64,000 nt of DNA from the NCBI GenBank assembly GCA_019429275.1, contig JAHYJC010000015.1:28337-92336 (forward strand). Direction: 5' to 3'. Position numbers and translations under genes: made by a program. Shown piece by piece: positions 28,647 through 63,392 of this stretch. Position 1 is the stretch's first letter. Each line of letters begins with the position of its first letter. The stretch is from Lentimicrobium sp. (GTDB lineage: Bacteria; Bacteroidota; Bacteroidia; Bacteroidales; Lentimicrobiaceae). A model generated the notes under the pieces. That model had not been told where the DNA came from. It searched no databases and worked only from the letters and a program-made list of their open reading frames with translations.

Positions 28647-30862
28647 TGACAGGGAGAATACTGATATTATTTATATATTTCTGGTTACCTCTGATGTTAT
28701 TAGGGCAGGGAAATCCTGTGCGTGTTGTTGACAGCCGCACGGGAATGCCTGTTGCTTTTGCCCACGTAAAAGCTACTGAACCAGGATCAAAAGCGGCAAA
28801 ATTCTTTGTAACCGATCCGGATGGTTTTGTGAAGTTCACTGTTACAAAGCCAACCATTTTTCAGGTGACTTATGTTGGTTATCAGAGCTTTAATGATACA
28901 CTTTTGCCTGGTGAAGAAGCTGTGGTCAGCTTATTGCCTGAGGTATTCTCACTGGATGAAGTGGTGGTTACTGCCCAGTATAATCCGGGCAGTGCTGACC
29001 GTTCACTTTACAGGGTAAATGTGATCAACCAGTTGCAACTTCGGCGAAGTGCGGCCAATGATCTTACCGGCTTATTGCGCAACCAGATGAACATCAGGTT
29101 TTCGCAGGATGCTTCACTCGGAACAGGAATGAGTCTTCAGGGTTTATCGGGTGAGCACGTAAAAATATTGATGGACGGTGTTCCGGTTATCGGACGTTTG
29201 AACGGAAGTATTGACCTGAGCCAGATAAACTTACAGAATGCAAGGCAGGTTGAAATTATTGAAGGTCCGATGTCGGTAATCTATGGCAGCAATGCCCTGG
29301 CAGGTGTTGTAAATATCATTCCGCAGGACATTCCGGGAAATTCACTGACTGCCAATGCAGGAACCTACCTTGAGTCTGTTGGGATTATTAATTTTGACGG
29401 AGGTTTTAGCATAAGACGAGGCAAGAATGCTTTTGGTGTTCAGGCTGGTCGCAACTTCTTTGCAGGATATTCACCTGAAGAGGAAGGCCGCTCAAGCCTA
29501 TGGAAACCACGTCGCCAGGTGAATACTGACCTGAATCACAGCCTGTCTCTCAAAAAAATCATACTTAAAACCAAATTCAGTTATTTTGATGAATTGCTTC
29601 TGATTAAAGGAAATTTATTGCCTCCCTATTATGAAAGAGCATTCGACAATCACTTCGGCACCAATCGAATGACTGCCAAATCTGATATTTCAACAAAGGG
29701 CAGAAATCCTTTTACAGCCAGCAATTCGCTTTCGTATTACCAACGTATAAGAACCCTGTATTACAACAATCTGACTATTCCTGAGAAAACACCCACCGAA
29801 TATGATACCACAGGTTTTGGATCGTTTCTTTCGCGGGGAATGTACTCTTACAGAAGCGAATCGGGATTATTTGGTACTCAGTTTGGTTATGATGCAAATG
29901 CAGAATGGGCAACCGGTGATCGAATAGGAAATGAGAAACATGATATAGCCGATATTGCCGGGTTTGCCACATTTCAGTACCAGCCGGTGGAGTGGCTTTC
30001 CCTGCAACCGGGTTTCAGGTATGCCTACAATACCAGGTTCAACTCTCCTTTGATTTATGCATTGCATCTTAAAGCCGGCCCGCAAAAGGGAATGATGTTT
30101 CGTGCCTCCTATTCCAGCGGATACAGGGCCCCATCACTTAAAGAGTTGTACCTGTTTTTTGTGGATGTGAATCATGATATTACCGGCAACCCCGATCTTA
30201 AACCTGAAAACTCAAACCACATTCAACTTCAGGCAACGCACAGAATTGAGAAGGTTACCTATGCTACTGAAACTGAATTCCGTTTCTTCCTGAACAACAT
30301 TGAGGATCAGATAACCCTGGCAGAAACCGGCGGCGGGTCCTATACCTATTTTAATCTGGATCAGGCCCGCACCATGGGATATTCAGCAAGTATACGGTCA
30401 TCGCTTTATCCTTTATTCGATTTAAGGCTCGGATGGGGGAGAACCGGAAAGGCAAATAACCTGCCCGGAGATGAAAATATGAAACTTTACTGGTCTCCGG
30501 AACTCACCTCGGAAGTTACCTGCCGAATGGATGATATTGATTTACATATCACTGCCATTTATAAATTCACGGGTCAGACAGCCAGAATTATTATGCTTAG
30601 TGACGGGCAGATTGGCGAAGGTTTTATGGATTCGTACCACAATCTTGATCTGACACTTTTAAAAACTTTTATGCAGAAAAGGCTGGCTGTCAATGCAGGT
30701 GTTAAAAATCTGTTTGATGTCACAAACATAACGTCTGCAGGTGGTTCAGGTGGTGTTCATTCAGGAGGCGGAAGCAATGTACCTGTGGCATGGGGCAGAA
30801 CATTCTTTTTGAAACTTTCATTCAATATTTCAAAAAATGAAAAGGCAAATAAAGACAGCTAG
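28646..30862 (+). CDS. TonB-dependent receptor (HmuR/BtuB-like)
   Basis: CarboxypepD-like domain, plug (DLTGLLRNQMNIRFSQD...VKILMDGVPVIGRLNG), beta-barrel with YSSGYRAPSLKELY. Confidence 0.94.
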   Translation: MTGRILILFIYFWLPLMLLGQGNPVRVVDSRTGMPVAFAHVKATEPGSKAAKFFVTDPDGFVKFTVTKPTIFQVTYVGYQSFNDTLLPGEEAVVSLLPEVFSLDEVVVTAQYNPGSADRSLYRVNVINQLQLRRSAANDLTGLLRNQMNIRFSQDASLGTGMSLQGLSGEHVKILMDGVPVIGRLNGSIDLSQINLQNARQVEIIEGPMSVIYGSNALAGVVNIIPQDIPGNSLTANAGTYLESVGIINFDGGFSIRRGKNAFGVQAGRNFFAGYSPEEEGRSSLWKPRRQVNTDLNHSLSLKKIILKTKFSYFDELLLIKGNLLPPYYERAFDNHFGTNRMTAKSDISTKGRNPFTASNSLSYYQRIRTLYYNNLTIPEKTPTEYDTTGFGSFLSRGMYSYRSESGLFGTQFGYDANAEWATGDRIGNEKHDIADIAGFATFQYQPVEWLSLQPGFRYAYNTRFNSPLIYALHLKAGPQKGMMFRASYSSGYRAPSLKELYLFFVDVNHDITGNPDLKPENSNHIQLQATHRIEKVTYATETEFRFFLNNIEDQITLAETGGGSYTYFNLDQARTMGYSASIRSSLYPLFDLRLGWGRTGKANNLPGDENMKLYWSPELTSEVTCRMDDIDLHITAIYKFTGQTARIIMLSDGQIGEGFMDSYHNLDLTLLKTFMQKRLAVNAGVKNLFDVTNITSAGGSGGVHSGGGSNVPVAWGRTFFLKLSFNISKNEKANKDS

Positions 30863-44107: not shown

Positions 44108-44771
44108 GCCCCTCTGGGGCTTGATGTTCTTCCGTGCATTACTTGGCTACCAACGCTGCGCCCCTCTGGGGCTTGATGTTCTTCCGTGCATTACTTGGCT
44201 ACCAACGCTGCGCCCCTCTGGGGCTTGATGTTCTTCCGTGCATTACTTGGCTACCAACGCTGCGCCCCTCTGGGGCTTGATTTTCTCCCGTCATGCATCA
44301 ACCTGCCAACGCTGCGCCCCGCTGGGGCTTGATGTTCTTCCGTGCATTACTTGGCTACCAATGCTGCGCCCCTCTGGGGCTTGATTTTCTCCCGTCATGC
44401 ATCAACCTGCCAACGCTGCGCCCCGCTGGGGCTTGATGTTCTTCCGTGCATTACTTGGCTACCAATGCTGCGCCCCTCTGGGACTTGATGTTCTTCCGTG
44501 CATTACTTGGCTACCAATGCTGCGCCCCTCTGGGACTTGATGTTCTTCCGTGCATTACTTGGCTACCAATGCTGCGCCCCTCTGGGGCTTGATGTTCTTC
44601 CGTGCATTACTTGGCTACCAATGCTGCGCCCCTCTGGGGCTTGATTTTCTCCCGTCATGCATCAACCTGCCAACGCTGCGCCCCTCTGGGGCTTGATGTT
44701 CTTCCGTGCATTACTTGGCTACCAATGCTGCGCCCCTCTGGGGCTTGATTTTCAAACATAGCATACTGTAC
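44108..44771. repeat. 52-bp-period tandem array: 13 copies of the GCCCC(T/G)CTGGGGC palindrome separated by 39-bp linkers of two classes (A and B)
   Basis: Palindromes start at 44108, 44160, 44212, 44264, 44316, 44368, 44420, 44472, 44524, 44576, 44628, 44680, 44732; linker order A A A B A B A A A A B A then degenerate. Confidence 0.97.
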
Positions 44772-45197: not shown

Positions 45198-45346
45198 GAA
45201 AAATTCTGTGTGCGGATAAGGAGATTCCGCTAAATCATTTTTTAGATTTTTTATGTATTGATAATCAGTACTATATAAATCCATGTTTTTGTAACATTTT
45301 AGCAGTTAATAGAAATTTTGATTGAGTTTTTGATTGAGGCAAAAAT

Positions 45347-45936: not shown

Positions 45937-45962
45937 GGAATTAGTATTAGTTGGCGCAAAAA

Positions 45963-46006
45963 ATATTTTGTTTATAAGTAATAAATATTTGCATTAAACA
46001 AAATAT
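45963..46006. promoter_or_regulatory. Operator-like 12-bp dyad ATATTTTGTTTA / TAAACAAAATAT in divergent intergenic region
   Basis: Perfect 12-bp inverted repeat, arms 45963-45974 and 45995-46006. Confidence 0.6.
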
Positions 46007-46018
46007 AACTTATCTTTG
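45988..46018 (+). promoter_or_regulatory. Bacteroidota-type promoter TTTG-N19-TATCTTTG for rightward early operon
   Basis: Consensus match; overlaps the dyad. Confidence 0.65.
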
Positions 46019-49704: not shown

Positions 49705-50598
49705 ATGGGACGAATTGAAAAGAATAATTGCGACTACTTTCCTCACTTGGTTACCATGCGTAACCACAGGAAAGTCAAGGCCTTGCGAAATAAATTCGGG
49801 CAGGTGCTTGGATATGCCTTTTGGTCGATGGTTCTGGAATACCTGACTGAGCAGGACGGAAACGAGTTTGAATATAGCGAGGACGAAATTGAAATGTTTG
49901 CAGCCGAACTTTCCATTGAGCCAGAAAAAGCAAAAGCCATGATTGAATACTGCCTTAATCGGGAACTCCTGTTTTTGAACAGCGAAAACTTCATCTATTC
50001 CAACAGCCTCAATGCCTACCTATCACCTGTCTATGACAAACGCATGAGGGCAAGGAAAGCAAGCGAAACGAGAGAAAGACGTGAGAACGGGCGTTTCTGT
50101 CACAGTAATTCCAACACTCCCGGTATTTCTGTGACAGAAAAACCACAAAGTAAAGTAAAGGAAAGTAAAGAAAAGGAAAGTAAAGTAGATGAAATAATTC
50201 CCGAAAAATCTGAACCTGAAATCTTAATCGTGGACGCTGAAGTTATCGAAGAATTACCGGCAAGTGAGAATCGAAACATCAAACCTAAAGGCAAAAAGAT
50301 ATTGTTTGCCGAATCAGTCCTGCTTTCGGAAGAAGAATACAGGAGCCTCGTTGCAACCAATGGAGAGCCAGGTGCAAAGCGAATTATTGAAATTCTTGAT
50401 AACTACAAAGGTTCATCTGGCAAGAAATACAAATCTGACTACAAGGCAATTTTAAGTTGGGTTATTGACCGCTATAACAAAGAGAACTATGGAAATCCAA
50501 AACAATACAGCAGCCTTGCAGGTAAGGCCCAAACAGCAGACAATCTTATTAACTCAATGTTCCGCAAAGAAGGACACAATGGAGCTGATGATTGCTGA
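49705..50598 (+). CDS. DUF4373 (Lin1244/Lin1753-like) phage replication-type protein
   Basis: NCDYFPHLVTMRNHRKVKALRNKFGQVLGYAFWSMVLEYLTEQDGNEFEYSEDEI. Confidence 0.75.
   Translation: MGRIEKNNCDYFPHLVTMRNHRKVKALRNKFGQVLGYAFWSMVLEYLTEQDGNEFEYSEDEIEMFAAELSIEPEKAKAMIEYCLNRELLFLNSENFIYSNSLNAYLSPVYDKRMRARKASETRERRENGRFCHSNSNTPGISVTEKPQSKVKESKEKESKVDEIIPEKSEPEILIVDAEVIEELPASENRNIKPKGKKILFAESVLLSEEEYRSLVATNGEPGAKRIIEILDNYKGSSGKKYKSDYKAILSWVIDRYNKENYGNPKQYSSLAGKAQTADNLINSMFRKEGHNGADDC
50094..50190. other. Origin-like element copy 1: palindrome pair (50094-50105 half-degenerate, 50126-50140 TTTCTGTGACAGAAA) plus AGTAAAG/GGAAAG repeats, inside DUF4373 gene
   Basis: TTTCTGTCACAG..TTTCTGTGACAGAAAAACCACAAAGTAAAGTAAAGGAAAGTAAAGAAAAGGAAAGTAAAG. 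Confidence 0.6.
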
Positions 50599-51211
50599 GA
50601 AGGGCTTGACCTTGGACGTTGCAATCAAATCAATGCACGTTGCAGAACTAACAAAACAACTTGGCGAAAAGGATATGCTGAAAGCAGTTACCGGAGCCAT
50701 TCTCGTGGCTGCAGAGTACTTCAATGTCAAGGGAGGTATCAATGAGTCACAGGCCGTTCAAACTGCTTCCCTATGGATTGAGCAGTACCCTCTGGAAACC
50801 TTTGAAGATTTGCTTCTATGCCTCAAAAATGCGAAGCTCGGCAAGTATGGCATCGTTTACAACCGGATTGACGGTCAGACAATCTTTGAATGGTTCAGGG
50901 CTTACCTCGATGAAAAGTATGAACGCTTCGAGCAAATGAAGAAGCAGGAGAAAATGGACGCAATGGCTGAATCTGAAGTGTTTATTGGCCTTGCTGCAAA
51001 GGTGCTTTCAAACAAACCCAAAGCAGAAGAATGTACAAGCCAGATAAGTCATGAATCACACCTCCAAAAATTTAAAGAGATGCTGGCTGACATGGGAAAG
51101 CATGAATTACTCGATGCAAAAAGGTATTACTTAAAGCAAAACTCACAAACCTTAAGCGGAGTTTTTCAGGACTATATCGACCTGATTAACGAAGCTATTC
51201 TATTGAAATAA
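50489..51211 (+). CDS. Hypothetical phage replication-module protein (DUF6633-like)
   Basis: Overlaps DUF4373 gene; DGQTIFEWFRAYLDEKYERFEQMK region. Confidence 0.6.
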   Translation: MEIQNNTAALQVRPKQQTILLTQCSAKKDTMELMIAEKGLTLDVAIKSMHVAELTKQLGEKDMLKAVTGAILVAAEYFNVKGGINESQAVQTASLWIEQYPLETFEDLLLCLKNAKLGKYGIVYNRIDGQTIFEWFRAYLDEKYERFEQMKKQEKMDAMAESEVFIGLAAKVLSNKPKAEECTSQISHESHLQKFKEMLADMGKHELLDAKRYYLKQNSQTLSGVFQDYIDLINEAILLK

Positions 51212-51223
51212 CAATCCTAAATC

Positions 51224-51475
51224 ATGTTAAAAGATTCCAAAGCAGTAAGCAAAATGAGACCCTGGCTGATTGAGCAACGGGAAAAACTTCTCGAAGCTGA
51301 AATGAGGCGAAAAAGCCTCTACCATAAGCTCGACAAAGTAAAAGGACTTGACGAGTACACAAATATTTGCTGTCAATTATCCACACTTGACTTGAAGATT
51401 GAGGCCATGAAAGCAAGATTGAAAGGAAATTGGGGAATGTCACAAACCGAATTCTTCAAACTTTCTGCAAAATAG
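51224..51475 (+). CDS. Hypothetical coiled-coil protein
   Basis: ORF in operon, tight spacing. Confidence 0.55.
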   Translation: MLKDSKAVSKMRPWLIEQREKLLEAEMRRKSLYHKLDKVKGLDEYTNICCQLSTLDLKIEAMKARLKGNWGMSQTEFFKLSAK

Positions 51476-51487
51476 GTGACAACAACA

Positions 51488-51670
51488 ATGGCAAAGAAGA
51501 AGAACAACCATACCCTGTTTCCTGATGAAACGGAAAAACCTAATTGCCCTGTCATTTGCCCGCAGTGCGGAATGCCTTTAGAAGTTGATTTAGAAATCTG
51601 CTGGATGTGTTGTGAGAAAATTACTGCACCCGAAAAAAATATCGCAAACAACTGTCCTACAAATGAATAA
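51488..51670 (+). CDS. Small zinc-ribbon-like protein
   Basis: CPVICPQCGMPLEVDLEICWMCCEK paired Cys motifs. Confidence 0.6.
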   Translation: MAKKKNNHTLFPDETEKPNCPVICPQCGMPLEVDLEICWMCCEKITAPEKNIANNCPTNE

Positions 51671-52073
51671 CAAACCAAACACCCCACGCAAGGCCAAAAT
51701 ATCGAAACCTACAAGGGATATTGGTTCGGAAAAATCAGACATGTTTGTTAAAATAGTCAAATCAGTGAATGGACTTGATGTAGTGAAGGAATACCGGTTC
51801 ACTCCCGAAAGAAGATGGAGGCTCGACTACGCCATTCCAACTCACATGATTGCCATTGAAGTTGAAGGTGGAGCTTTCACCAGTGGAAGGCACACCCGGG
51901 GAAAGGGATTTATCGCTGATATGGAGAAGTACAATGAACTTACCTGCCTTGGTTGGTCGCTTATCCGGGTAACACCCCAAAACCTACTCACATCAAAAAC
52001 ACTCGAAAACGTTCATAGATGTGCTGAAAACTATAATTTCTTAGTAAAAAATTACCATAGTGGTAGTTTTTGA
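51663..52073 (+). CDS. Putative VSR/DUF559-like endonuclease
   Basis: RRWRLDYAIPTHMIAIEVEGG..RHTRGKGFIADMEKYNELTCLGWSLIRVTPQ (D-ExE pattern). Confidence 0.7.
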   Translation: MNNKPNTPRKAKISKPTRDIGSEKSDMFVKIVKSVNGLDVVKEYRFTPERRWRLDYAIPTHMIAIEVEGGAFTSGRHTRGKGFIADMEKYNELTCLGWSLIRVTPQNLLTSKTLENVHRCAENYNFLVKNYHSGSF

Positions 52074-52109
52074 TGCAATGCATCGTATTTTTACACAAAA
52101 ATCATAACC

Positions 52110-52748
52110 ATGTCAGAAGAATTAAAAATCATCTACCGGCAGCTATCTGAACTGATTGAGCCTGATTACAACCCTCGCAAAATATCAGCAAAACAGAGGG
52201 AGGAAATTAAGAAGTCCCTGATGAATTTCGGTTTCGTGCAACCGCTTGTGGTCAATATGCACCCGGAAAGAGAAAACATTGTTATCGGTGGTAATCAGAG
52301 GAAGAAGATAGCCGAAGCAATGGGACACGAAACTGCACCCTGTATCGAAGTAAATCTTGACCTCGAAAAGGAGAAGGAGCTTAACCTTAGGCTGAACAAA
52401 AATCAGGCTGAATTTGATGTTGACCTGCTGAACGAATTCTTTGACCGGGAATTCCTTTTTGACATTGGATTTACTGAAAAGGAAGTCGGTAAACTCGAAA
52501 GTGAGTTTGACCAAAAATTCAATGCAATCACGAATGATGAAGCTGAAATGCCGATTGTTCCTAAGTTCAATGAGAAGTACAATTCCATTATCATTTTCTG
52601 CAACAATGAGTTGGACTTCAATTGGATTCGCAATGTCCTCAAACTTCAAAGGCACAAGGACTACAAAAATTCAAGAGTTGGCGAAGCACACGTTTTGACT
52701 GTTCAGAATTTTCAGGAGATTTGGGAGGAGGCCGTTAACCATGAATAA
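52110..52748 (+). CDS. ParB N-terminal (ParB/Srx)-domain protein
   Basis: LIEPDYNPRKISAKQREEIKKSLMNFGFVQPLVVNMHPERENIVIGGNQRKKIAEAMG. Confidence 0.85.
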   Translation: MSEELKIIYRQLSELIEPDYNPRKISAKQREEIKKSLMNFGFVQPLVVNMHPERENIVIGGNQRKKIAEAMGHETAPCIEVNLDLEKEKELNLRLNKNQAEFDVDLLNEFFDREFLFDIGFTEKEVGKLESEFDQKFNAITNDEAEMPIVPKFNEKYNSIIIFCNNELDFNWIRNVLKLQRHKDYKNSRVGEAHVLTVQNFQEIWEEAVNHE

Positions 52749-53484
52749 GATACCTGTTGTTTGTCCGAGCAAAGGCCGCTTCAACAATGTAAAAACCCTG
52801 CAATTTTTCCCTGACCTTGTCCTTGTCGTGCCACACTACGAAGTCGAACAATACAAGGAGAATTACCCTGATACCGAAGTAATCGGCACTCCAAAACACA
52901 TCAAAGGGATTACACCAACAAGGCAATGGATTATTGAGCAATGGGACGATGTCTTTATGATTGATGATGATGTTGAAGCAGTAAGAAGGAACTTTACCCT
53001 CCCGAATGAGGAGTACAATATTGAAGATTCTGTTACTGTCAGAGATATTCTTGAAACTACCGCAGGCATCGCTAAAGATATTGGCGCAAAGGTCTATTCC
53101 TTCGGCAAAGTCAAAAACCCTCTTGAGTACAACTCCTTCAAACCGATTGACCATGTTGGCTACATGAATGCTTCGTTTTGTGGATTCATGAAAGGGCATG
53201 GACTTAGTTACGACCTCTCAATGTCAGAAGGAGAAGATCATTACATATCCTGCCTGACGATTTACAAGCACCGGTATTGCCTTATCGACAACAGATACAC
53301 CTTTCAAACGCAAGGTAACTTCAAAGCATTGGGCGGTTGTAATGACTACCGAACCCGGGAAAGCATGATCAAGAACACCCTATACCTACGCAAGAAATTC
53401 GGAGAAGTTATCAAATTCAAAGAAGCAACCGCAATTAAGAAGAACGTCAATTTTGGCGAAAGGTCACTCATATTCCCGTACTGA
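52741..53484 (+). CDS. GT-A-fold glycosyltransferase resembling TET-associated (TAGT)/GREB1-like phage glycosyltransferases
   Basis: VVCPSKGRFNNV..ITPTRQWIIEQWDDVFMIDDDVEAV (PSKGR and DDD motifs). Confidence 0.65.
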   Translation: MNKIPVVCPSKGRFNNVKTLQFFPDLVLVVPHYEVEQYKENYPDTEVIGTPKHIKGITPTRQWIIEQWDDVFMIDDDVEAVRRNFTLPNEEYNIEDSVTVRDILETTAGIAKDIGAKVYSFGKVKNPLEYNSFKPIDHVGYMNASFCGFMKGHGLSYDLSMSEGEDHYISCLTIYKHRYCLIDNRYTFQTQGNFKALGGCNDYRTRESMIKNTLYLRKKFGEVIKFKEATAIKKNVNFGERSLIFPY

Positions 53485-54254
53485 TGAAAATTCTGATCTG
53501 CATACCTTCAAAAGGAAGGCCGTATGACCTCAAAACTACTGAATGGCTCGCTAAATGCTCCCTGCCTGAAAACTGCCATGTAAAAGTATTCGTTGAACCT
53601 CAGGAGAAACGGTATTACAACCTTTCCCTGCCAAAGAAAGATTGGCTGTTTACGCTCCCTGAAAATGACAGAGGGAAAGGATATGCCATGTTTATCGCTA
53701 CTCAATACGCCAAAGAAAACGGCTACGATTTGCAGTTTTTCATGGACGATGATATTAACGGATTCATTGATTTCAGGGCAAAGTCGGCTTTCAAGGTCGA
53801 TGTTTTTAACAACCTGCTCAGAGATATACCAACTGCCTTTGAGAATGATGAAAAACTCGGACTTGTCAGATTCCTTTCAGCCCGGGCCTTCTACTTCGTC
53901 AAAAACAAACAGCAGCAATTCGTGTACAAAAATCAGGGTGCCTGGGGTACGATGTTAGTCAGAACCAATCAAAACAAAATCTGCCCTGAGATTACTCACT
54001 ACGACGACACCGCTATTCAACTCTACCTATGGAGAGAAGGATTCCACGCCCTCACATACGGACTTGCAGGAGTTAATGTCGAAGTCTATACCAACAAAGG
54101 AGGTTACCAAATCCGGGACAGAAAAAAAGATGCCGAAGATGCTATTGAATTCCTGAAAAGGGATTTTCCAAAAGTATTCATGAAGTCAGCAACCCACACT
54201 CTCGGTTACGATATTGATATTGAAGCATACAAACCCAAAACAGAAAACCTGTAA
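53484..54254 (+). CDS. Second glycosyltransferase of the same apparent family
   Basis: ICIPSKGRPYDLKTTEWL..NGYDLQFFMDDDINGF; starts in TGATG overlap with upstream gene. Confidence 0.65.
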   Translation: MKILICIPSKGRPYDLKTTEWLAKCSLPENCHVKVFVEPQEKRYYNLSLPKKDWLFTLPENDRGKGYAMFIATQYAKENGYDLQFFMDDDINGFIDFRAKSAFKVDVFNNLLRDIPTAFENDEKLGLVRFLSARAFYFVKNKQQQFVYKNQGAWGTMLVRTNQNKICPEITHYDDTAIQLYLWREGFHALTYGLAGVNVEVYTNKGGYQIRDRKKDAEDAIEFLKRDFPKVFMKSATHTLGYDIDIEAYKPKTENL

Positions 54255-54916
54255 TGACCGTTGACGTTATCATTCCTGCAAACAGCAAAGACTATATGAG
54301 CCTTATTACTACTGCAGCCTCAATCAGAAGCCTCAGAAGTTCAAGTAGCAATATACAATTCAATGTTATTGTTGTCGAACAAAACAAACCCACTTCACAC
54401 CCTCTTGCCGACAAAGTGCTGAATTATGACTTCGACTTCAACTACAACAAAGTGCTTAACCTCGGATTGAAAAACAGTTCAGCCAAATACGCACTACTCT
54501 GCAACAATGATTTGATTTACCACACAGGTTTCTTTGAGGCCTTGCTGCAGGTATTCCGGACAGGCTACAAATCACTTTCCCCTACCAATCCACTCAGAAG
54601 CCTATACACCCACAAACCTATTGTCGAAGGCTACGGAGTTAATCATGACCTGATGGGTTGGTGCATCGCTGTTGAACGTGATATGATTGAACGTATTGGC
54701 TACTTTGACGAAGGAGTTTCCTTTTGGTACTCCGACAACCTGTATGCAGACCAACTCAAACACCATAACATCAAACACGCAAGAGTTACCAATTCATTTG
54801 TCTTTCACATCGGCTCAGGCTCGTCAAGCCTCAGAAATCTTACTCCTGAACAGAAGGCAGAATACACCACAAAACAAAAACTTATTTACGAAAATGCAAG
54901 GAAAAAGTATAAATAA
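54254..54916 (+). CDS. GT2-family glycosyltransferase
   Basis: VDVIIPANSKDYMSLITTAASIRSL, YALLCNNDLIYHTGFFEALL, GWCIAVERDMIERIGYFDE; TAATG overlap with upstream gene. Confidence 0.75.
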   Translation: MTVDVIIPANSKDYMSLITTAASIRSLRSSSSNIQFNVIVVEQNKPTSHPLADKVLNYDFDFNYNKVLNLGLKNSSAKYALLCNNDLIYHTGFFEALLQVFRTGYKSLSPTNPLRSLYTHKPIVEGYGVNHDLMGWCIAVERDMIERIGYFDEGVSFWYSDNLYADQLKHHNIKHARVTNSFVFHIGSGSSSLRNLTPEQKAEYTTKQKLIYENARKKYK

Positions 54917-54973
54917 ATTTGGATAACTCGCTATTTATTAATAAGTTAGCATGAACTTAAACAGCAACACAAA

Positions 54974-55615
54974 ATGAAACAACAAGTATTGACGATCAAT
55001 GGCTATGACCTTTTTGAATGTGTTTCAGCACTTCAAAAGGAAATTCGCAGGTGCAATGAAAAGGAAGCAATGTATTGGGCTGTTGAACTGTACAACTCCG
55101 GTTACGCTCCTTATGTTTGGAAACGGCTTGTCATAATTTCAACCGAAGATATTGGACTTGCTTATCCGATGGCTCCGGTTATAATCAATGCCCTGCAAGT
55201 TCAATTCGAAAAACTTTCTGAAAGACCTGATAAGAAGAAGCAATGCAGACTGCCATACGTTCAGGCAGTATTGTTTCTTACTAATGCTCCCAAAAGTAGA
55301 CACACCGATTGGGCTTTGAATTACCACTTCGACAGTCATTGGTTCGTTGATATGAATAAGAAGGAAATTCCTGATTATGCCATTGACATTCACACCCGGA
55401 AAGGAAAGGCAATGGGTAAAACAATCAACAACTTCTTTGAAGAAGGAAGTTACGTAGCCAATCATAAACTACTCAATAACGAGGAGTTCTATAAAAATGA
55501 ATGCAGAAGGCGTTGGAATAGCCAGGAATGGATTGCCGTTGCAAAACAGAGAAGTGCTGAATTTGAGAATCGAAATAACAATCCCTCTACACAAGGAGAC
55601 TTATTTTCAAGTTGA
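54974..55615 (+). CDS. Orphan RarA/MgsA C-terminal-domain-like protein (no AAA+ domain)
   Basis: YDLFECVSALQKEIRRCNEKEAMYWAVELYNSGYAPYVWKRLVIISTEDIGLAYPMAP..VLFLTNAPKS parallels RarA C-terminal region. Confidence 0.65.
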   Translation: MKQQVLTINGYDLFECVSALQKEIRRCNEKEAMYWAVELYNSGYAPYVWKRLVIISTEDIGLAYPMAPVIINALQVQFEKLSERPDKKKQCRLPYVQAVLFLTNAPKSRHTDWALNYHFDSHWFVDMNKKEIPDYAIDIHTRKGKAMGKTINNFFEEGSYVANHKLLNNEEFYKNECRRRWNSQEWIAVAKQRSAEFENRNNNPSTQGDLFSS

Positions 55616-55621
55616 CAAAAC

Positions 55622-56038
55622 ATGACAAAAGCAGTTAAAAAGGCTTCCGCAAGGAGGCCTTCAGTCAAAAGAAGACAACAGGCATTTTTGGAGGCCTACG
55701 ACAAATCTCTATCCAACGTATCTATGGCCTGCAAGGTTGTTGGTATCAGCCGCAATGCTTTTTACGAATGGTGCAAGAAGTACCCTAAATTCAACCAACA
55801 GATCATTGATTTTGATGAAAGCAATATTGATTTTGCCGAAACAATGTTGATGAAAAACATCAGGGAGCAGAAAGAAGCTTCAATCTTTTTCTACTTAAAG
55901 ACCAAAGCGAAGGCCAGAGGATACGTTGAACGGCAGGAGTTTGAGCACGGAGGCTCCGATGCTTTCATTGAAGCGATGAAAGTTGCAAGTAAACTCAGAA
56001 GGCAAATGGAAGGACAGCAAGCCGATGAATCAAATTGA
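55622..56038 (+). CDS. Terminase small-subunit-like protein
   Basis: HTH region SNVSMACKVVGISRNAFYEWCKKYPKFNQQI; directly upstream of TerL with overlapping ORF. Confidence 0.75.
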   Translation: MTKAVKKASARRPSVKRRQQAFLEAYDKSLSNVSMACKVVGISRNAFYEWCKKYPKFNQQIIDFDESNIDFAETMLMKNIREQKEASIFFYLKTKAKARGYVERQEFEHGGSDAFIEAMKVASKLRRQMEGQQADESN

Positions 56039-57548
56039 GTTTGCCGAAAACATTCTTTACTATCAGGAGGATTGGTGCAGGTTTGCCCGGGACATTCTCC
56101 GAATCAAGTTGGACCCGCAGCAAGAAGCTATCCTGAGAGGCGTACAGCATAACAAAATGGTAACTGTTCGTTCAGGTACTGCAAGAGGCAAGGACTTTGT
56201 CGCTGCTGCTGCTGCCTTATGTTTCCTATATCTTACACCTGACTTTGACGATGAAGGAGAGATGATTGCCTCTACCAAAATTGCCCTTACTGCTCCTACA
56301 GGCCGACAGATAAAAAATATCATGATGCCTGAAATAACCAAAATGTATAACAGGGCAAAATTCCTTCCCGGCAATCTGATGTCTGACGGGATCCGTTTTG
56401 ACTACTTCAAAGATTGGTTTCTTGTTGGTTTCAAAGCAAGTGATTCACCCGAAGCCTGGTCAGGATTTCACGCAGTAAACACGATGTTTGTCATTACTGA
56501 AGCTTCGGGTATTCCTGAAGTAATATATGAGGCAATCGAAGGTAACTTGCAGCAAAACAGCCGAATGTTGTTGGTATTCAATCCAAACACTACAACCGGT
56601 TATGCTGCTTCATCGCACAAATCCGCACGTTTCACGAAGTTTCGTTTAAGCTCCTTAGATGCTCCAAATGTACTTGCCAGAAAAACTATTTTTCCCGGGC
56701 AGGTCGATTATGAATGGATTTGCGACAAGGTAAACCAATGGTGCACTACCATTCAGGAGAGGGATTTTAACGAAGGAGAAGGCGACTTTCGCTTTCAGGT
56801 ACCCGAAAAGCCTGAACTGCTATACCGGCCAAATGACCTGTTCCGTATCAAGGTGCTTGGAATGTTTCCCAAAGTTTCAGAAGATGCTCTTATTCCTATC
56901 AATTGGGTTGAACTTGCCAATCAGCGGTGGATTGAAAAAACTGAATATCTTGACAGGGAGAATTTAGGCCCCAAATCTTTAGGCGTTGACGTTGCCGGAA
57001 TGGGAAGGGATTCAAGTGTACTCTGTCACAGGCACGGAAGCTATGTTTGGAAGTTTGACGTTCATTTTGCAGCAGGCAAGGCAGATCACATGGCCATATC
57101 AGGAATGGTAGCAAATGCCCTCAAAGTAGACCCGGAGAACAAGGCTTTCATCGATACTATTGGAGAGGGAGCAGGAGTTTATTCAAGGCTGATTGAACTT
57201 GGGTATGACAACGCTTTTTCCTGCAAATTCTCGTCAGGAGCGAAGGGACTGAATGACATTACCGGAGTGTACAAGTTTGCCAACCTCCGGGCATACCTTT
57301 TTTGGTGTGTAAGGGATTGGCTTAACCCTGCCAACAATAACGATGCTTGCCTACCATTAGACGACCAATTAATTGAAGAAGCAACCGCAATAAAATGGAA
57401 GTTTCAGTCCGATGGTTCAATCATCATTGAACCGAAGGAGGACATCAAAACCCGTTTAGGCCGGTCAATCGACAAGTTTGACGCACTTGCAAATACTTTT
57501 TATCCTGCAGGTAAAAAAACGGTTGACTTGTCAAAGATATTCTTTTAG
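56025..57548 (+). CDS. terL: Phage terminase large subunit
   Basis: MVTVRSGTARGKDFVAAAAALCFL (Walker A-like), VITEASGIPEVIYEAIEGNL, GVDVAGMGRDSSVLCHR nuclease region. Confidence 0.88.
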   Translation: MNQIEFAENILYYQEDWCRFARDILRIKLDPQQEAILRGVQHNKMVTVRSGTARGKDFVAAAAALCFLYLTPDFDDEGEMIASTKIALTAPTGRQIKNIMMPEITKMYNRAKFLPGNLMSDGIRFDYFKDWFLVGFKASDSPEAWSGFHAVNTMFVITEASGIPEVIYEAIEGNLQQNSRMLLVFNPNTTTGYAASSHKSARFTKFRLSSLDAPNVLARKTIFPGQVDYEWICDKVNQWCTTIQERDFNEGEGDFRFQVPEKPELLYRPNDLFRIKVLGMFPKVSEDALIPINWVELANQRWIEKTEYLDRENLGPKSLGVDVAGMGRDSSVLCHRHGSYVWKFDVHFAAGKADHMAISGMVANALKVDPENKAFIDTIGEGAGVYSRLIELGYDNAFSCKFSSGAKGLNDITGVYKFANLRAYLFWCVRDWLNPANNNDACLPLDDQLIEEATAIKWKFQSDGSIIIEPKEDIKTRLGRSIDKFDALANTFYPAGKKTVDLSKIFF

Positions 57549-57550
57549 TT

Positions 57551-58963
57551 TTGCCCCATGATGGTAATTTTATGAAACAGATTTCAGACATTTTAAACCA
57601 AAGTCCTGAGAACATTGTCAAGGCTATAAAAGCCTCCGAAAAGGAAGTTGACAGGAAAGAAATAAGTGCTCAATACGACCCTTCCATGCACGATGTTATG
57701 ATCTCTTACAAGAGAAAAAACAAAAGAGCGATGGACGGGAAAGGAGGTGTTAAGGAGGTCTCTGTTGCAAGGCTTTCCATTCCTTTTCAAAAGATCATTG
57801 TGAACCGGGCTGTTGCCTTCTTATTCACAAATCCTGTATCAATTACGCTTGCAGACCAAACGGCTGATGATACAGCTTTGACGATGATTCAATACCTTCT
57901 AAAGAAGAATAAAAGTAGCTCGTTAAACCGTGAAATTGCCAGGGCTTTGTTCAGTGAAACCGAAGTTGCAGAATATTGGTACCCTGTTGAAGATAAAGCC
58001 TTTTGGAAGAAAGCCAAACTTGAAAAGGTTGGAGATTACCGTTTACGTTGCCGGATATTCAGCCCTTCAAGAGGAGATACCCTCTATCCTGTTTTTGACG
58101 AGTTTGACGACATGGTTGCCTTTGGGAGAGGATACACCATAGTTGAAGGAGAGAAGAATGTAAAAACAGAATATCTTGACCTGTTTACGAATGATTTCAT
58201 CAAACGCTACAAAAAGGACAAGGAATTAGGTTGGATTGAAGAAATCAGCACTCCGAACATACTCAGCAAAATTCCGGTTGTTTACTATTCTCAGGAAGAA
58301 GCTGAATGGAGTGATGTTCAAAGCATGATTGACCGTTTAGAAACTTTGATCTCAAACTTTGCAGACACGAATGATTACTTTGGCAGTCCGATGGTGAAAG
58401 TGAAAGGAACCGTTACCGGTTTTGCTGAAAAGGGAGAGCAAGGCAAAGTGATTACCGTATCAGAGGGAGGCGATGCCGAATACCTGACATGGTCCAACGC
58501 TCCAGATACAATCAAGTTGGAGATTGACACCCTGCAAAACTTCATCTACTCAATGACACAAACCCCGGACATTTCGTTTAAAGCTGTTCAGGGTATTACA
58601 AACATATCAGGAATTGCATTGAAGTTGTTATTCCTTGACGCTTATCTGAAGGCTCAGAACAAGCTCGAAATCTTTGATGAAGCCATGACACGAAGGCTGT
58701 CAATCCTGAAATCTTACTGCTCCAAATTCAACGTAGCGAAGGAAACAATCATTCTCGATACAGAAATTGAGGCAGTTATCACACCTTACATTCCTGAAAA
58801 TCTTAAAGAGACAATTGAGATGCTTTCCGCTGCAACCGGAGGCAAACAAATACTCTCACAATCAAAGGCTGTTTCCATGACCGGCCTTGCTGATGATGCA
58901 GTTAAAGAAATGGAAGAAATTTCAAAAGAATTAGTCAATACCATAGGAGAAACTTTTGTATGA
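57551..58963 (+). CDS. Phage portal protein (SPP1 gp6-like)
   Basis: Position after TerL; IPFQKIIVNRAVAFLFTNPVSI, NDYFGSPMVKVKG, TPDISFKAVQGITNISGIALKLLFLDAYLKAQNK. Confidence 0.85.
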   Translation: MPHDGNFMKQISDILNQSPENIVKAIKASEKEVDRKEISAQYDPSMHDVMISYKRKNKRAMDGKGGVKEVSVARLSIPFQKIIVNRAVAFLFTNPVSITLADQTADDTALTMIQYLLKKNKSSSLNREIARALFSETEVAEYWYPVEDKAFWKKAKLEKVGDYRLRCRIFSPSRGDTLYPVFDEFDDMVAFGRGYTIVEGEKNVKTEYLDLFTNDFIKRYKKDKELGWIEEISTPNILSKIPVVYYSQEEAEWSDVQSMIDRLETLISNFADTNDYFGSPMVKVKGTVTGFAEKGEQGKVITVSEGGDAEYLTWSNAPDTIKLEIDTLQNFIYSMTQTPDISFKAVQGITNISGIALKLLFLDAYLKAQNKLEIFDEAMTRRLSILKSYCSKFNVAKETIILDTEIEAVITPYIPENLKETIEMLSAATGGKQILSQSKAVSMTGLADDAVKEMEEISKELVNTIGETFV

Positions 58964-59205
58964 TGAGCAATTTTCAAGAGTTTGATTGTCTTTTTCTCCA
59001 AAGGGACAATGAAATCAATAGTAATGCAGATTATGTAAGAGGGAAAATTTGTATTGACCTCAATAATGCCATTGCCTTCAATCGATTTACTGACGAACGC
59101 TATACCGTACTAAGAATGGTTGATGGCAATAGTTATATTGTTCGTTGTAGTTATGACGACATGATGGAAAGGGTTTTGAGTTATGTCGTAAGATTTGAAA
59201 ATTAA
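58960..59205 (+). CDS. Hypothetical small protein between portal and minor head
   Basis: 81-aa ORF, overlapping start/stops. Confidence 0.6.
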   Translation: MMSNFQEFDCLFLQRDNEINSNADYVRGKICIDLNNAIAFNRFTDERYTVLRMVDGNSYIVRCSYDDMMERVLSYVVRFEN

Positions 59206-60281
59206 TGCCTCCTGTTGACCCGTTTGATTTAAAGCATATACGCAATGTTGAAGCCTATTCAAAGCAGATAAACGAACTCTATGCCGATGCGATTGGTAAA
59301 ATTGCCCGGATAGGAGGCTCTGTTTCTATGGCTCCCGGTGCTGTATTCAATTACTCCAAACACCCTCAATTCAAGGCTCAGTTTGCTGCCATATTCAATG
59401 ACATGGCAGACAAGTTGGAAGCTGTTGTTATAAATGGCATATCCAAGCAATGGCTATTGGGTGACGAGAAAGCCATTGCACAGGCTATGAAAGCTTTGAA
59501 AGGCTCAATATCCATGAAGGCCTTTGAGAAAGTTTCGGCAAAGAATTTCGGGTCAACGTCAAAAGCTATGGAATCATTCCTTAGTCGGAAGAATGCCGGT
59601 TTAGGTCTATCTGACAGGGTTTGGAATTACACCAATCAGTTCAAGGGAGAAATGGAGTTAGCTCTTCAATTAGGCATTCAGAGTGGCCAAAGCTCAATTG
59701 ACCTTGCTCAATCCATGCAGAAGTATTTGCGTGAGCCTGATAAGCTATTTCGCAGGGTAGGAGATGAGTTTGGTCAACTTCACCTATCCAAAGCAGCAAA
59801 GAAGTACAGCCCTGGCAATGGCGTTTATCGGTCAAGCTATAAAAATGCACACAGGCTTGTCCGGACTGAAATAAACATGGCATACCGGAAGGCTGAAAAT
59901 GAACGCTATAAATCACTCCCTTTCGTTGTTGGTTATGAAGTCAGGCTTTCCAACGCACACCCTGCTTTTGATATTTGCGACGACCTCAAAGGGAAGTACC
60001 CGAAGGAGTTTAGTTTCTCCGGTTGGCACCCTCAATGCCTCTGCCATACTGTACCGGTAATGGCCTCCGAGGACGAATACGATACGATGGAGCAACAGAT
60101 TTTATCCGGACAGCCAATCACACCAATTGACAGTCAAAACAGCGTGAAAGAGCCTCCTGCGGGCTTTGTGAATTGGGTTGACAATAACAGGGAAAGGGCC
60201 ACCGGTTGGAAGTCGCAACCATACTTCATTAAAGATAACTTCAAGGGAGGCACATTGAAAGGTAAATTGTCTTTGGCCTGA
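59205..60281 (+). CDS. Phage minor head/head morphogenesis protein (Mu gpF/SPP1 gp7-like)
   Basis: AHRLVRTEINMAYRKAENERYKSLPFVVGYEVRLSNAHPAFDICDDLKGKYP..GWHPQCLCHTVPV. Confidence 0.8.
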   Translation: MPPVDPFDLKHIRNVEAYSKQINELYADAIGKIARIGGSVSMAPGAVFNYSKHPQFKAQFAAIFNDMADKLEAVVINGISKQWLLGDEKAIAQAMKALKGSISMKAFEKVSAKNFGSTSKAMESFLSRKNAGLGLSDRVWNYTNQFKGEMELALQLGIQSGQSSIDLAQSMQKYLREPDKLFRRVGDEFGQLHLSKAAKKYSPGNGVYRSSYKNAHRLVRTEINMAYRKAENERYKSLPFVVGYEVRLSNAHPAFDICDDLKGKYPKEFSFSGWHPQCLCHTVPVMASEDEYDTMEQQILSGQPITPIDSQNSVKEPPAGFVNWVDNNRERATGWKSQPYFIKDNFKGGTLKGKLSLA

Positions 60282-60306
60282 AGTTAAGCACTTCATTAAT
60301 CAGCGT

Positions 60307-60339
60307 AGGCTCAATCATTCATTTGGTTGGGCCTTTTTT
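60307..60339 (+). terminator. Rho-independent terminator ending the terminase-portal-head operon
   Basis: GGCTCAA..TTGGGCC followed by T6. Confidence 0.7.
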
Positions 60340-60431
60340 CTGTGACAGAAAAACCTACACAAATGGATTTCTGTCACAGAAATACCACAGAGTAGAGTAG
60401 AGTAAATAAGAGAAAAGAAAAGGAAAGTAAA
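60337..60431. other. Origin-like element copy 2: palindromes 60337-60351 (TTTCTGTGACAGAAA) and 60368-60382 (TTTCTGTCACAGAAA) plus AGTAGAG/GGAAAG repeats
   Basis: Same order and spacing as copy 1 at 50.1 kb; here intergenic. Confidence 0.6.
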
Positions 60432-60520
60432 TTATAAAGATTACTGTCAAAAATCACTATTTGTATTTCATATAAATAAGTTATAACAGAAGAAATATTA
60501 TGAAAATAACAGAATAAATA

Positions 60521-60552
60521 TTTGCATTAAACATAACATATATTTAAGTTTG
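60521..60552 (+). promoter_or_regulatory. Promoter TTTG-N20-TAAGTTTG for the second rightward operon
   Basis: Consensus match; contained 21-bp AATAAATATTTGCATTAAACA identical to 45980-46000. Confidence 0.65.
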
Positions 60553-61079: not shown

Positions 61080-61292
61080 ATGAAAGAAGAAGATTTTTTA
61101 CAAGCAATCAAGTTAATTGCTCTCTATCACTCGACGGAGATTGAAATCAACCACGTACCTGAAAATGGTAAGGTAAAAATAGACAACCGGATAACAATTA
61201 AAAGATGTTGTGCAGGCCTCTTTTCCGAATTGGTAATCAAAGGGTATAGCCTCTATGTAAGTAACGAAGGATTAATCGTAAATAAATTCTAA
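61080..61292 (+). CDS. Hypothetical small protein
   Basis: ORF preceded by AACAACAGCAACCATG leader. Confidence 0.55.
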   Translation: MKEEDFLQAIKLIALYHSTEIEINHVPENGKVKIDNRITIKRCCAGLFSELVIKGYSLYVSNEGLIVNKF

Positions 61293-61295
61293 GCC

Positions 61296-61808
61296 ATGAA
61301 AACCACAATCAACAAGGACAAGAAAGAGACAGGTTCGTTTTTCAACCTGATAATGGGCAACAATAATTCCATTCCGGTAGTAGGGAAGGGAGCAACAGTC
61401 CTACTTTGGACGGACAGAGAAGCTTACGAAGTTACCGAAGTTGACGAAGCCAAAAAGACTTGCACCATTCAGAGATATGCACCTGAAAGAACCGACAGCC
61501 ACGGAATGTCAGACTGTCAGGGTTATAAGTACGAGAAACTTACAGATGAAGTAAAGCATTTGGTATACAGACAAAAAGCATGGAGGCAGATAATTCATTC
61601 TGTCACATATACAAAGGAGTTCATGGAGAAACACCCTGATACCTATTCATTTTCAAGAGTGCTTACACAAGAGCAGAAAGATGCTATCTACGCAGGAGAA
61701 GTTTACCCTAAAAATGTCGTGGAAGGCTTTACAAGGGAGAAAATAACCTATTCGAAAATCAACATCATTTTCGGAGTACTAAAAGAGTATTACGATTACA
61801 GCTTTTAA
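61296..61808 (+). CDS. Hypothetical protein
   Basis: 170-aa ORF; GKGATVLLWTDREAYEVTEVDEAKKTCTIQRYAPERTDSHGMSDCQGYKYE. Confidence 0.65.
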   Translation: MKTTINKDKKETGSFFNLIMGNNNSIPVVGKGATVLLWTDREAYEVTEVDEAKKTCTIQRYAPERTDSHGMSDCQGYKYEKLTDEVKHLVYRQKAWRQIIHSVTYTKEFMEKHPDTYSFSRVLTQEQKDAIYAGEVYPKNVVEGFTREKITYSKINIIFGVLKEYYDYSF

Positions 61809-61858
61809 TCTGTGGCCAGCCCGCAAAACATAGTAGTATAAATCAAAAAGGAAGTAAA

Positions 61859-62074
61859 ATGAAATCAACAATTTATCACGTCTTAGACAAGGAGACAAAC
61901 AAGCACCATTATTTCGGCAGTATCGTTGCCATATTCTCTTTTTTCTGTCAGTTTGATATTGGCACCACTCCCTCGAAGCTATATCGGTACGGGTTAGAAA
62001 ACAGGCCTTTTGAGAATGAATTTGTTACAATTCGGAAGGGAGAACTGCTCAGGAGCAGGCAGATGCCGAAGTGA
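61859..62074 (+). CDS. Hypothetical small protein
   Basis: 71-aa ORF; cysteine-poor, no family recognised. Confidence 0.5.
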   Translation: MKSTIYHVLDKETNKHHYFGSIVAIFSFFCQFDIGTTPSKLYRYGLENRPFENEFVTIRKGELLRSRQMPK

Positions 62075-62113
62075 AAAATAATTGCAAATATTTGAAAAAT
62101 AATTAGTTAAATA

Positions 62114-62145
62114 TTTGGAAATCAATTATTTACGATGTAAGTTTA
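62114..62145 (+). promoter_or_regulatory. Promoter TTTG-N20-TAAGTTTA followed by GGTCAAAC leader
   Basis: Same layout as 60521-60563. Confidence 0.5.
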
Positions 62146-62181
62146 TATGGTCAAACATTACTCACTTAAACAACAGCAGTC

Positions 62182-62454
62182 ATGAAAGAACAAGAAATTT
62201 ACGAAAAAGCAAAGCGACTTTTTACAGATTTTGAAAACGGAATTATCGACATAGATTTATTCCAAAGCTCCTTGACTGACTTGGCAAGGCACTTAAATTT
62301 CCTTACATCTTGTTATACAATCGACGATTTTGTTGCTGAATATATAAAGCCTCAGTTCGATGATTACCGGGATGATCCTAAGAGATACCGTTACCTGCTT
62401 TCAGTTTATTCAAGCGGCAGCCTTCTTACCCAATTTGAACCTTATCAAGAATAG
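62182..62454 (+). CDS. Hypothetical protein
   Basis: 90-aa ORF with AACAACAGCAGTCATG leader. Confidence 0.55.
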   Translation: MKEQEIYEKAKRLFTDFENGIIDIDLFQSSLTDLARHLNFLTSCYTIDDFVAEYIKPQFDDYRDDPKRYRYLLSVYSSGSLLTQFEPYQE

Positions 62455-62507
62455 TCAAACCAAACAGCCTCCCGGGAAACCGGGGGGCGTCTTAAACAAC
62501 AGCAACA

Positions 62508-62957
62508 ATGAAAAAGTACAAATCATCAATCAGCAGGTTCAGGATAGTATCCGAACCAACAACCTTCCCGAAGGCGCAAATCAAGTCAAGCAGAGATGCT
62601 GCTGACTTCATCAAAGACCTTTGGGAGGACGATATTGAAGTATCGGAGAGTTTCTACGCCTTGTTTCTTAATAGGGCCAACAATACTTCAGGCTATGCCA
62701 AACTAAGTAACGGAGGAATTAATGGAACAATCGTTGAACCATTATTTATCCTGAAGTATGCAGCAGACTTGCTTTCAAAGTCAGTCATTCTTTTTCACAA
62801 TCACCCCTCAGGGAGTCTTTCGCCAAGCGATGCTGACAAGAAATTAACTGACAAAGTAAATGCGATGTTAAAATTTGCAGATGTCACGGTTATTGACCAC
62901 GTAATCCTTGGTCTTGAAGATAGATATTTCAGCTTTGCCGATGAAGGGTTGATTTAG
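62508..62957 (+). CDS. RadC-like JAB/MPN-domain protein
   Basis: ILFHNHPSGSLSPSDADKKLTDKVNAMLKFADVTVIDHVILG. Confidence 0.9.
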   Translation: MKKYKSSISRFRIVSEPTTFPKAQIKSSRDAADFIKDLWEDDIEVSESFYALFLNRANNTSGYAKLSNGGINGTIVEPLFILKYAADLLSKSVILFHNHPSGSLSPSDADKKLTDKVNAMLKFADVTVIDHVILGLEDRYFSFADEGLI

Positions 62958-63033
62958 CCGGTTACAAGTCCGGATTGAATTGTGAGTAGCCCCGCCAGGC
63001 GGGGTGTAAACAAACCTTTAACAACAGCAACAA

Positions 63034-63392
63034 TGAGTGCAAAGGACAAAGTAATCGAAATCAGAAAGAAGCTTGCCTCACTGCCGGCAGAAGATCGGCA
63101 GGAATTTGTTTCCCGGGTAGGCAGCGTAGTAACAATCGAAGGAAGGGCGCTTTCATCTCACAATACGGAGCTTTGCGTTTTCCAATATCCCGAAGTTACT
63201 ATAGTCGGAGGCTTTCAGCAATGGAGGAAGGCAGGGCGTCAGGTTCGCAAAGGAGAGCATGGCCTGGCGATTTGGGTACCTGCCATCAGCAAACCAAAAG
63301 AAGGCGAACCCGAAGCAACCGAAACGGATCCGTATTTCTTCGGTGGGACTGTATTTGATATTACCCAAACAGAAGAACTCTTACATGAATAA
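63034..63392 (+). CDS. ArdC N-terminal-domain-like ssDNA-binding/antirestriction protein
   Basis: ALSSHNTELCVFQYPEVTIVGGFQQWRKAGRQVRKGEHGLAIWVP. Confidence 0.75.

Follow-up and report, generated by a model that had tools for sequence, protein, structure and literature searches.

In origins of the phage lambda O type, the initiator-binding iterons lie within the coding sequence of the initiator itself. Plasmids of the RepA_N group (pSK1, pSK41, pAD1) carry iterons inside the initiator coding sequence (PMC3155836); these are semi-palindromic, and the initiator has a winged-helix N-terminal domain (PMC7145576). The Bacillus subtilis phage SPP1 has an origin inside gene 38, oriL, and a second one, oriR, about 12 to 13 kilobases (kb) away (PMC6316719, PMC3485210). 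oriR is found together with three morons (8 to 10) between gp7 (MuF) and gp11 (scaffold) and is bracketed by transcription signals (PMC6316719). Binding of the initiator at oriR has been proposed to stall forks and lead to concatemer replication (PMC6316719, PMC3485210). The replication origins of phages with a DUF4373 initiator appear to have remained undescribed so far, and our literature search turned up no paper that mentions DUF4373 together with replication. Here, we analyzed a 64,000-nucleotide stretch of Lentimicrobium sp. DNA (the window), in which an earlier note, made from the sequence alone, had described a duplicated origin-like element composed of two 15-base-pair (bp) palindromes and AGTAAAG-type iterons. 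Our comparisons suggest that this element is probably the replication-origin module of a Bacteroidota-type prophage, with an SPP1-like oriL/oriR layout plus a third site.

Anatomy and genomic distribution of the element

Both palindrome pairs were located where the earlier note had placed them (coordinates follow the window, whose end is the end of the contig; all features listed are on the forward strand). In copy 1, palindrome a (TTTCTGTCACAGTAA, one mismatch, positions 50094 to 50108) is read in the frame FCHSN and palindrome b (TTTCTGTGACAGAAA, 50126 to 50140) in the frame SVTE, and their centers, 50101 and 50133, are 32 bp apart. Copy 2 consists of an exact TTTCTGTGACAGAAA (60337 to 60351) and TTTCTGTCACAGAAA (60368 to 60382), with centers at 60344 and 60375, 31 bp apart. 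As had been claimed, both pairs run on into ACCACA(A/G)AGTA(A/G)AGTA, followed by a purine tract. The description as a duplication holds for the window, but it understated the count: a third copy, with two exact palindromes, is found on another contig of the same 4.19-Mb assembly, C54 (G000:C54:21271-21316), beyond the limits of the window; it adjoins this prophage's integrase. The layout in each copy is palindrome, 16 or 17 bp, palindrome, the run-on motif and the purine tract, for a total of about 100 bp.

The three copies are 77 to 82% identical in pairs over 97 to 104 bp (E values down to 9e-23), and the longest identical run common to them is 19 bases. The palindrome arms are invariant in 27 of 28 columns, compared to 41 of 67 for the other columns (Fisher p = 2e-4). 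The central base of the palindrome switches between G and C among the copies, which fits a symmetric dimer site. Copies 2 and 3 are non-coding, with stops in every frame, and their palindromes are still perfect.

The tracts that follow the palindromes are less stable than 96.6 to 98.9% of prophage windows and also rank among the most purine-biased stretches. The copy 1 tract (CCACAAAGTAAAGTAAAGG..., 50141 to 50197), which encodes PQSKVKESKEKESK, has a stability below 96.6% of prophage windows and a purine fraction of 0.84, a value reached by 0.08% of windows; on these grounds it is a candidate DNA-unwinding element. The tract of copy 2 (60383 to 60436) is non-coding, with stops in all frames, and 98.8% of prophage windows exceed it in stability. 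Their A+T-rich composition and their position beside the repeats are those of an unwinding element, and the tracts would be expected to melt.

We ran the genome-wide motif search that the earlier note had proposed. The exact palindrome TTTCTGTSACAGAAA occurs five times in the assembly, once in copy 1 and twice each in copies 2 and 3, and is thus confined to the prophage copies instead of being scattered over the genome. A DNA search with copy 1 over the assembly returned these three places alone, and one with copy 3 over about 200 genomes of the order gave chance partial matches only, apart from its own genome. A host-wide regulator site was rejected, as the exact palindrome is restricted to the prophage and no pairs were found in 148 related genomes. 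The window contig and C54 most likely carry the two parts of a single prophage, about 41 kb long. We infer the join from the gene order of C54, which begins with decoration and capsid genes and continues through tail, lysis and accessory genes to copy 3 and the integrase, and from IMG/VR, in which the two prophage parts are two virus records from one sample.

Palindrome pairs in the DUF4373 initiator family

As previously noted, copy 1 lies within a DUF4373 gene (49705 to 50598), which codes for a Lin1244-type replication initiator. The PF14297 domain was found at the N-terminus (E = 1.2e-11; 45.6 bits against a cut-off of 25), and PHROG matches are to a "replisome organizer" (E = 1.2e-29) and a "replication initiation protein" (E = 4e-26). 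A Pfam scan of the initiator gave PF14297 only, with no RepA_N domain (PF06970), and tblastn of the initiator against named phages gave no match. In an AlphaFold2 model built with 19 homologues, the protein is folded from about residue 12 to 129, has a disordered linker from 130 to 203 and a helical C-terminus from 209 to 287. The palindromes of copy 1 are encoded in the linker codons, in two different reading frames.

From viral contigs, we then gathered some 130 genes related to this one, 115 after dereplication. TTTC-N5/8-GAAA palindromes are 22 times denser inside these genes than in their surroundings. They concentrate in the linker codons with a modal spacing of exactly 32.0 bp, so the reading frame is shifted between the two palindromes. 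Pairs 31 to 33 bp apart were present in 13 of the 115 dereplicated genes and in 1 of 1,992 control stretches; shuffling left them in none of 2,300 codon-shuffled genes and in 4 of 2,300 synonymous shuffles that encode the same protein. The out-of-frame pairs and their loss in same-protein shuffles argue that the palindromes are DNA sites. Most likely, it is the initiator that binds them; DNA-constrained repeats in an initiator gene are one hallmark of in-gene origins of the lambda O and SPP1 oriL type. The palindrome cores vary by phage (CTGTnACAG, CTACnnGTAG, CCGnnnCGG) while the geometry is constant. Many aligned elements have CCACAAAGTAAAGTAAAGG in common, located behind their second or third palindrome, and one Bacteroidia contig carries a dense array of TTTCTGTCACAGAAA both within and outside a DUF4373 gene.

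Some genes carry additional palindromes. In several DUF4373 genes (loci L036, L114, L139 and L171), one falls in codons of the N-terminal domain (gene positions about 167 to 215), upstream of the palindrome in the linker by about 213 bp. In phage G310 (L220:10164-10423), two non-coding pairs are likewise 213 bp apart.

The association with the initiator was also seen in a protein-blind scan for palindrome pairs in 2.9 million viral contigs, which returned 13 non-self contigs. In nine of them the pair is within a replication gene (eight of the DUF4373 type, one with another helix-turn-helix [HTH] domain); in the other four, which represent two independent phages, it is non-coding. A DUF4373 gene was present in 10 of 10 scan records tested, including three with non-coding pairs, which lie 16 or 35 kb from that gene, compared to 3 of 11 long capsid-related phage records (Fisher p = 8e-4); the ten records include two near-identical phages, which makes the effective number slightly smaller.

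Extragenic sites and their possible functions

The most telling case for meaningful extragenic positions comes from G325, the closest relative of the prophage, which encodes an initiator and a MuF protein that are 56% and 67% identical to those described here. No such palindrome was found in the G325 initiator gene. An exact TTTCTGTnACAGAAA occurs in the gap before its scaffold gene (position 29116) and again between its lysis genes and integrase (46084), places that correspond to those of copies 2 and 3. G325 has 20 TGTnACA cores over a length of 48 kb, and 11 of them fall in these two spots, spaced 10 or 20 bp apart. The recurrence of the motif at the same two places speaks against chance and against a mere scar. 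In other phages, G310 and G311 have a non-coding double pair between the MuF-ADP-ribosyltransferase gene and the scaffold gene, and L014 has, next to its integrase, a pair at a spacing of 31 bp that comes with the same tract, and the same palindrome occurs in the initiator gene of that phage. The DUF4373 gene of Porphyromonas phage005b contains a 36-bp sequence that recurs just before the scaffold gene; next to this second copy lies an array of an 11-bp direct repeat, CTGACAAACGA (L227:30300-30427).

These phages bear on the explanation that the extragenic copies are inert scars, that is, pieces of the initiator linker that illegitimate or homologous recombination deposited at the edges of accessory-gene islands. 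Copies 2 and 3 are both at island borders and still read as broken linker-coding pieces (ISVTEIPQSRVE and KPQSKV, each up to a stop), and the phage005b copy also reads as a coding fragment. Nevertheless, we consider this explanation unlikely: the arms are perfect while the remainder has diverged by 25 to 30%, G325 has the motif at both places without an in-gene copy, and the non-coding pairs of independent phages have more complete palindromes than the gene does. The proposal of the earlier note that the two copies would let the 10.2-kb block between them move as a recombination cassette did not survive either. It is unsupported because divergence between the repeats is too great, no identical run being longer than 19 bases; in addition, the element has a third copy, and G325 shares the extragenic positions while lacking the in-gene copy.

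Alternatively, the palindromes could serve a transcription regulator of the phage or the host as its operators, for instance in a late-gene switch, and have no part in replication. A palindromic 15-mer would suit a dimeric regulator, and copy 2 and the G325 sites are upstream of genes. We regard this as quite improbable, since the genome holds prophage copies only, copy 3 is situated where the end of a gene faces the convergent integrase, and the sites occur within the initiator genes of many phages, tracking DUF4373. No copy was found near the repressor switch region (45.6 to 46.1 kb), which rules out a phage operator there. Finally, it is scarcely credible that these palindromic, multicopy elements are parS-like sites of the ParB-like protein encoded at 52110-52748, as this protein has the ParB N-terminal domain (ParB_N) but no DNA-binding HTH domain was found in it, and the sites go with the initiator, lying within the genes that encode it.

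Of the possibilities raised earlier, ParB sites are hence unsupported, and the initiator or origin assignment is well supported by comparison: pairs occur inside genes across the family, all 10 records tested in the unbiased scan have DUF4373, and a relative has kept sites at the same extragenic positions. Several observations weigh against an origin module. Clear palindrome pairs are present in a minority of the family genes, some of which have other repeats. The structural match of the initiator to winged-helix replication initiators is weak (best E = 0.1); two staphylococcal plasmid initiators (5kbj, 4pta) are among these matches, as a lead only. The prophage was put together from two contigs whose join is inferential. 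Sixteen further DUF4373 phages that have MuF show no copy after it, which indicates that the extragenic copy is limited to some lineages, and none was found after MuF in 25 capsid-related loci either. The same type of palindrome also occurs in unrelated chromosomal arrays of Spirochaetaceae and Oscillospiraceae.

These arrays (TTTCYGTnACRGAAA) are found in a Spirochaetaceae metagenome-assembled genome (MAG; L098 to L100, L104) and in the Oscillospiraceae MAG SIG630 (L103, L108). In the latter, an array comes after a helicase-loader-like gene and a second is found upstream of an hrcA-like gene. None of the arrays is tied to DUF4373, and we set them aside as unrelated.

According to our model, the origin module comprises two 15-bp palindromes with a TGTnACA core, 31 to 32 bp or three helical turns apart, and behind them a purine-biased tract that should melt readily. 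Dimers of the DUF4373 initiator most likely bind to the palindromes, both on the same side of the helix; the initiator would then open the tract, and the helicase would be brought in with a loader. Copy 1 would represent the in-gene origin (oriL type), copy 2 an oriR-type second site between the MuF gene and the moron and capsid genes, and copy 3 a third site by the integrase. Copies 2 and 3 may be origins, fork barriers or titration sites. By analogy with SPP1, they might act as late origins or as initiator-bound barriers that stall forks and switch replication from circles to concatemers, a role that we propose tentatively. More speculatively, the DUF4373 origin module may be mobile: residing in the initiator gene, it could be copied to fixed extragenic stations (the MuF-scaffold gap and the integrase end), which would remain even where the gene has lost it. 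On this view, Bacillota (SPP1) and Bacteroidota-type phages might share the MuF-scaffold gap as a station that houses a second origin or a fork barrier bound by the initiator, as a general switch from replication to packaging.

Prophage setting and comparison with known systems

The MuF, or SPP1 gp7-like, minor head protein gene (59205 to 60281; PHROG head morphogenesis, phrog_35295) is directly upstream of copy 2. PF04233 misses this type of MuF, so we added a protein search. The product of the gene is 33% identical to a RAP44 protein annotated "SPP1 gp7 family." It is a short version, without the ADP-ribosyltransferase-like C-terminal domain of the 848-amino-acid MuF head protein of G310 (L220:5773-8319). 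In agreement with the earlier note, copy 2 is intergenic and follows a terminator-like hairpin (60307 to 60334), whose T tract abuts it. The argument for a terminator is the position after the operon, as the hairpin search found one and one would be expected by chance. The sequence preceding copy 3 also reads as a terminator-like hairpin.

Between copy 2 and the capsid genes are accessory (moron) genes (61080 to 63392), including, by Pfam, a RadC-like gene (62508-62957; E = 5e-32) and one with an ArdC N-terminal domain (ArdcN; 62982-63392; E = 1.2e-6). Two 51-bp stretches, one ahead of the gene that comes first behind copy 2 (60490-60540) and one between the prophage repressor genes (45958-46007), are 80% identical; the moron operon may have a promoter or operator in common with the lysogeny switch. 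The gene after the initiator (50465 to 51211), in a possible helicase-loader position, matches PHROG 35728 of unknown function (E = 1e-18) and, weakly, DUF6633. A candidate left attachment site of 25 bp (45315 to 45339) is 96% identical to C54:22536-22560, beside the integrase start. Just left of the prophage (about 44118 to 44703) is a tandem repeat with a 52-bp period, in which GGCTTGATGTTCTT recurs at multiples of 52 bp.

For a large family of phage initiators, the module would offer a specific site and geometry that can be tested, and it would be a DNA signal hidden within coding sequence across many phages. Its iterons within the initiator's own gene resemble those of lambda O and RepA_N origins. 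It differs from both in its extragenic copies and in the 32-bp pair geometry, which as far as seen is specific to the DUF4373 family; there is also no match to the RepA_N family model. SPP1 is described as having direct repeats bound by gp38 (G38P), whereas here palindrome pairs 31 to 32 bp apart accompany a DUF4373 initiator; SPP1 is lytic, and a third copy lies by the integrase here. The likeness to SPP1, which we compared through its published description, is one of layout. One origin is within the initiator gene and a second is in non-coding DNA, in the same gene order, with copies 1 and 2 separated by 10.2 kb and the SPP1 origins by about 12 to 13 kb. Both systems have repeats plus an A+T-rich unwinding element, a candidate one in the prophage. 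In both, the second site is between MuF and the scaffold or capsid genes together with morons, and sites upstream of the scaffold gene recur in G325 and in G310 and G311. These would be independent cases of the SPP1 oriL/oriR layout, so that the proposal of concatemer replication triggered by an initiator-bound second origin could be tested in other phages.

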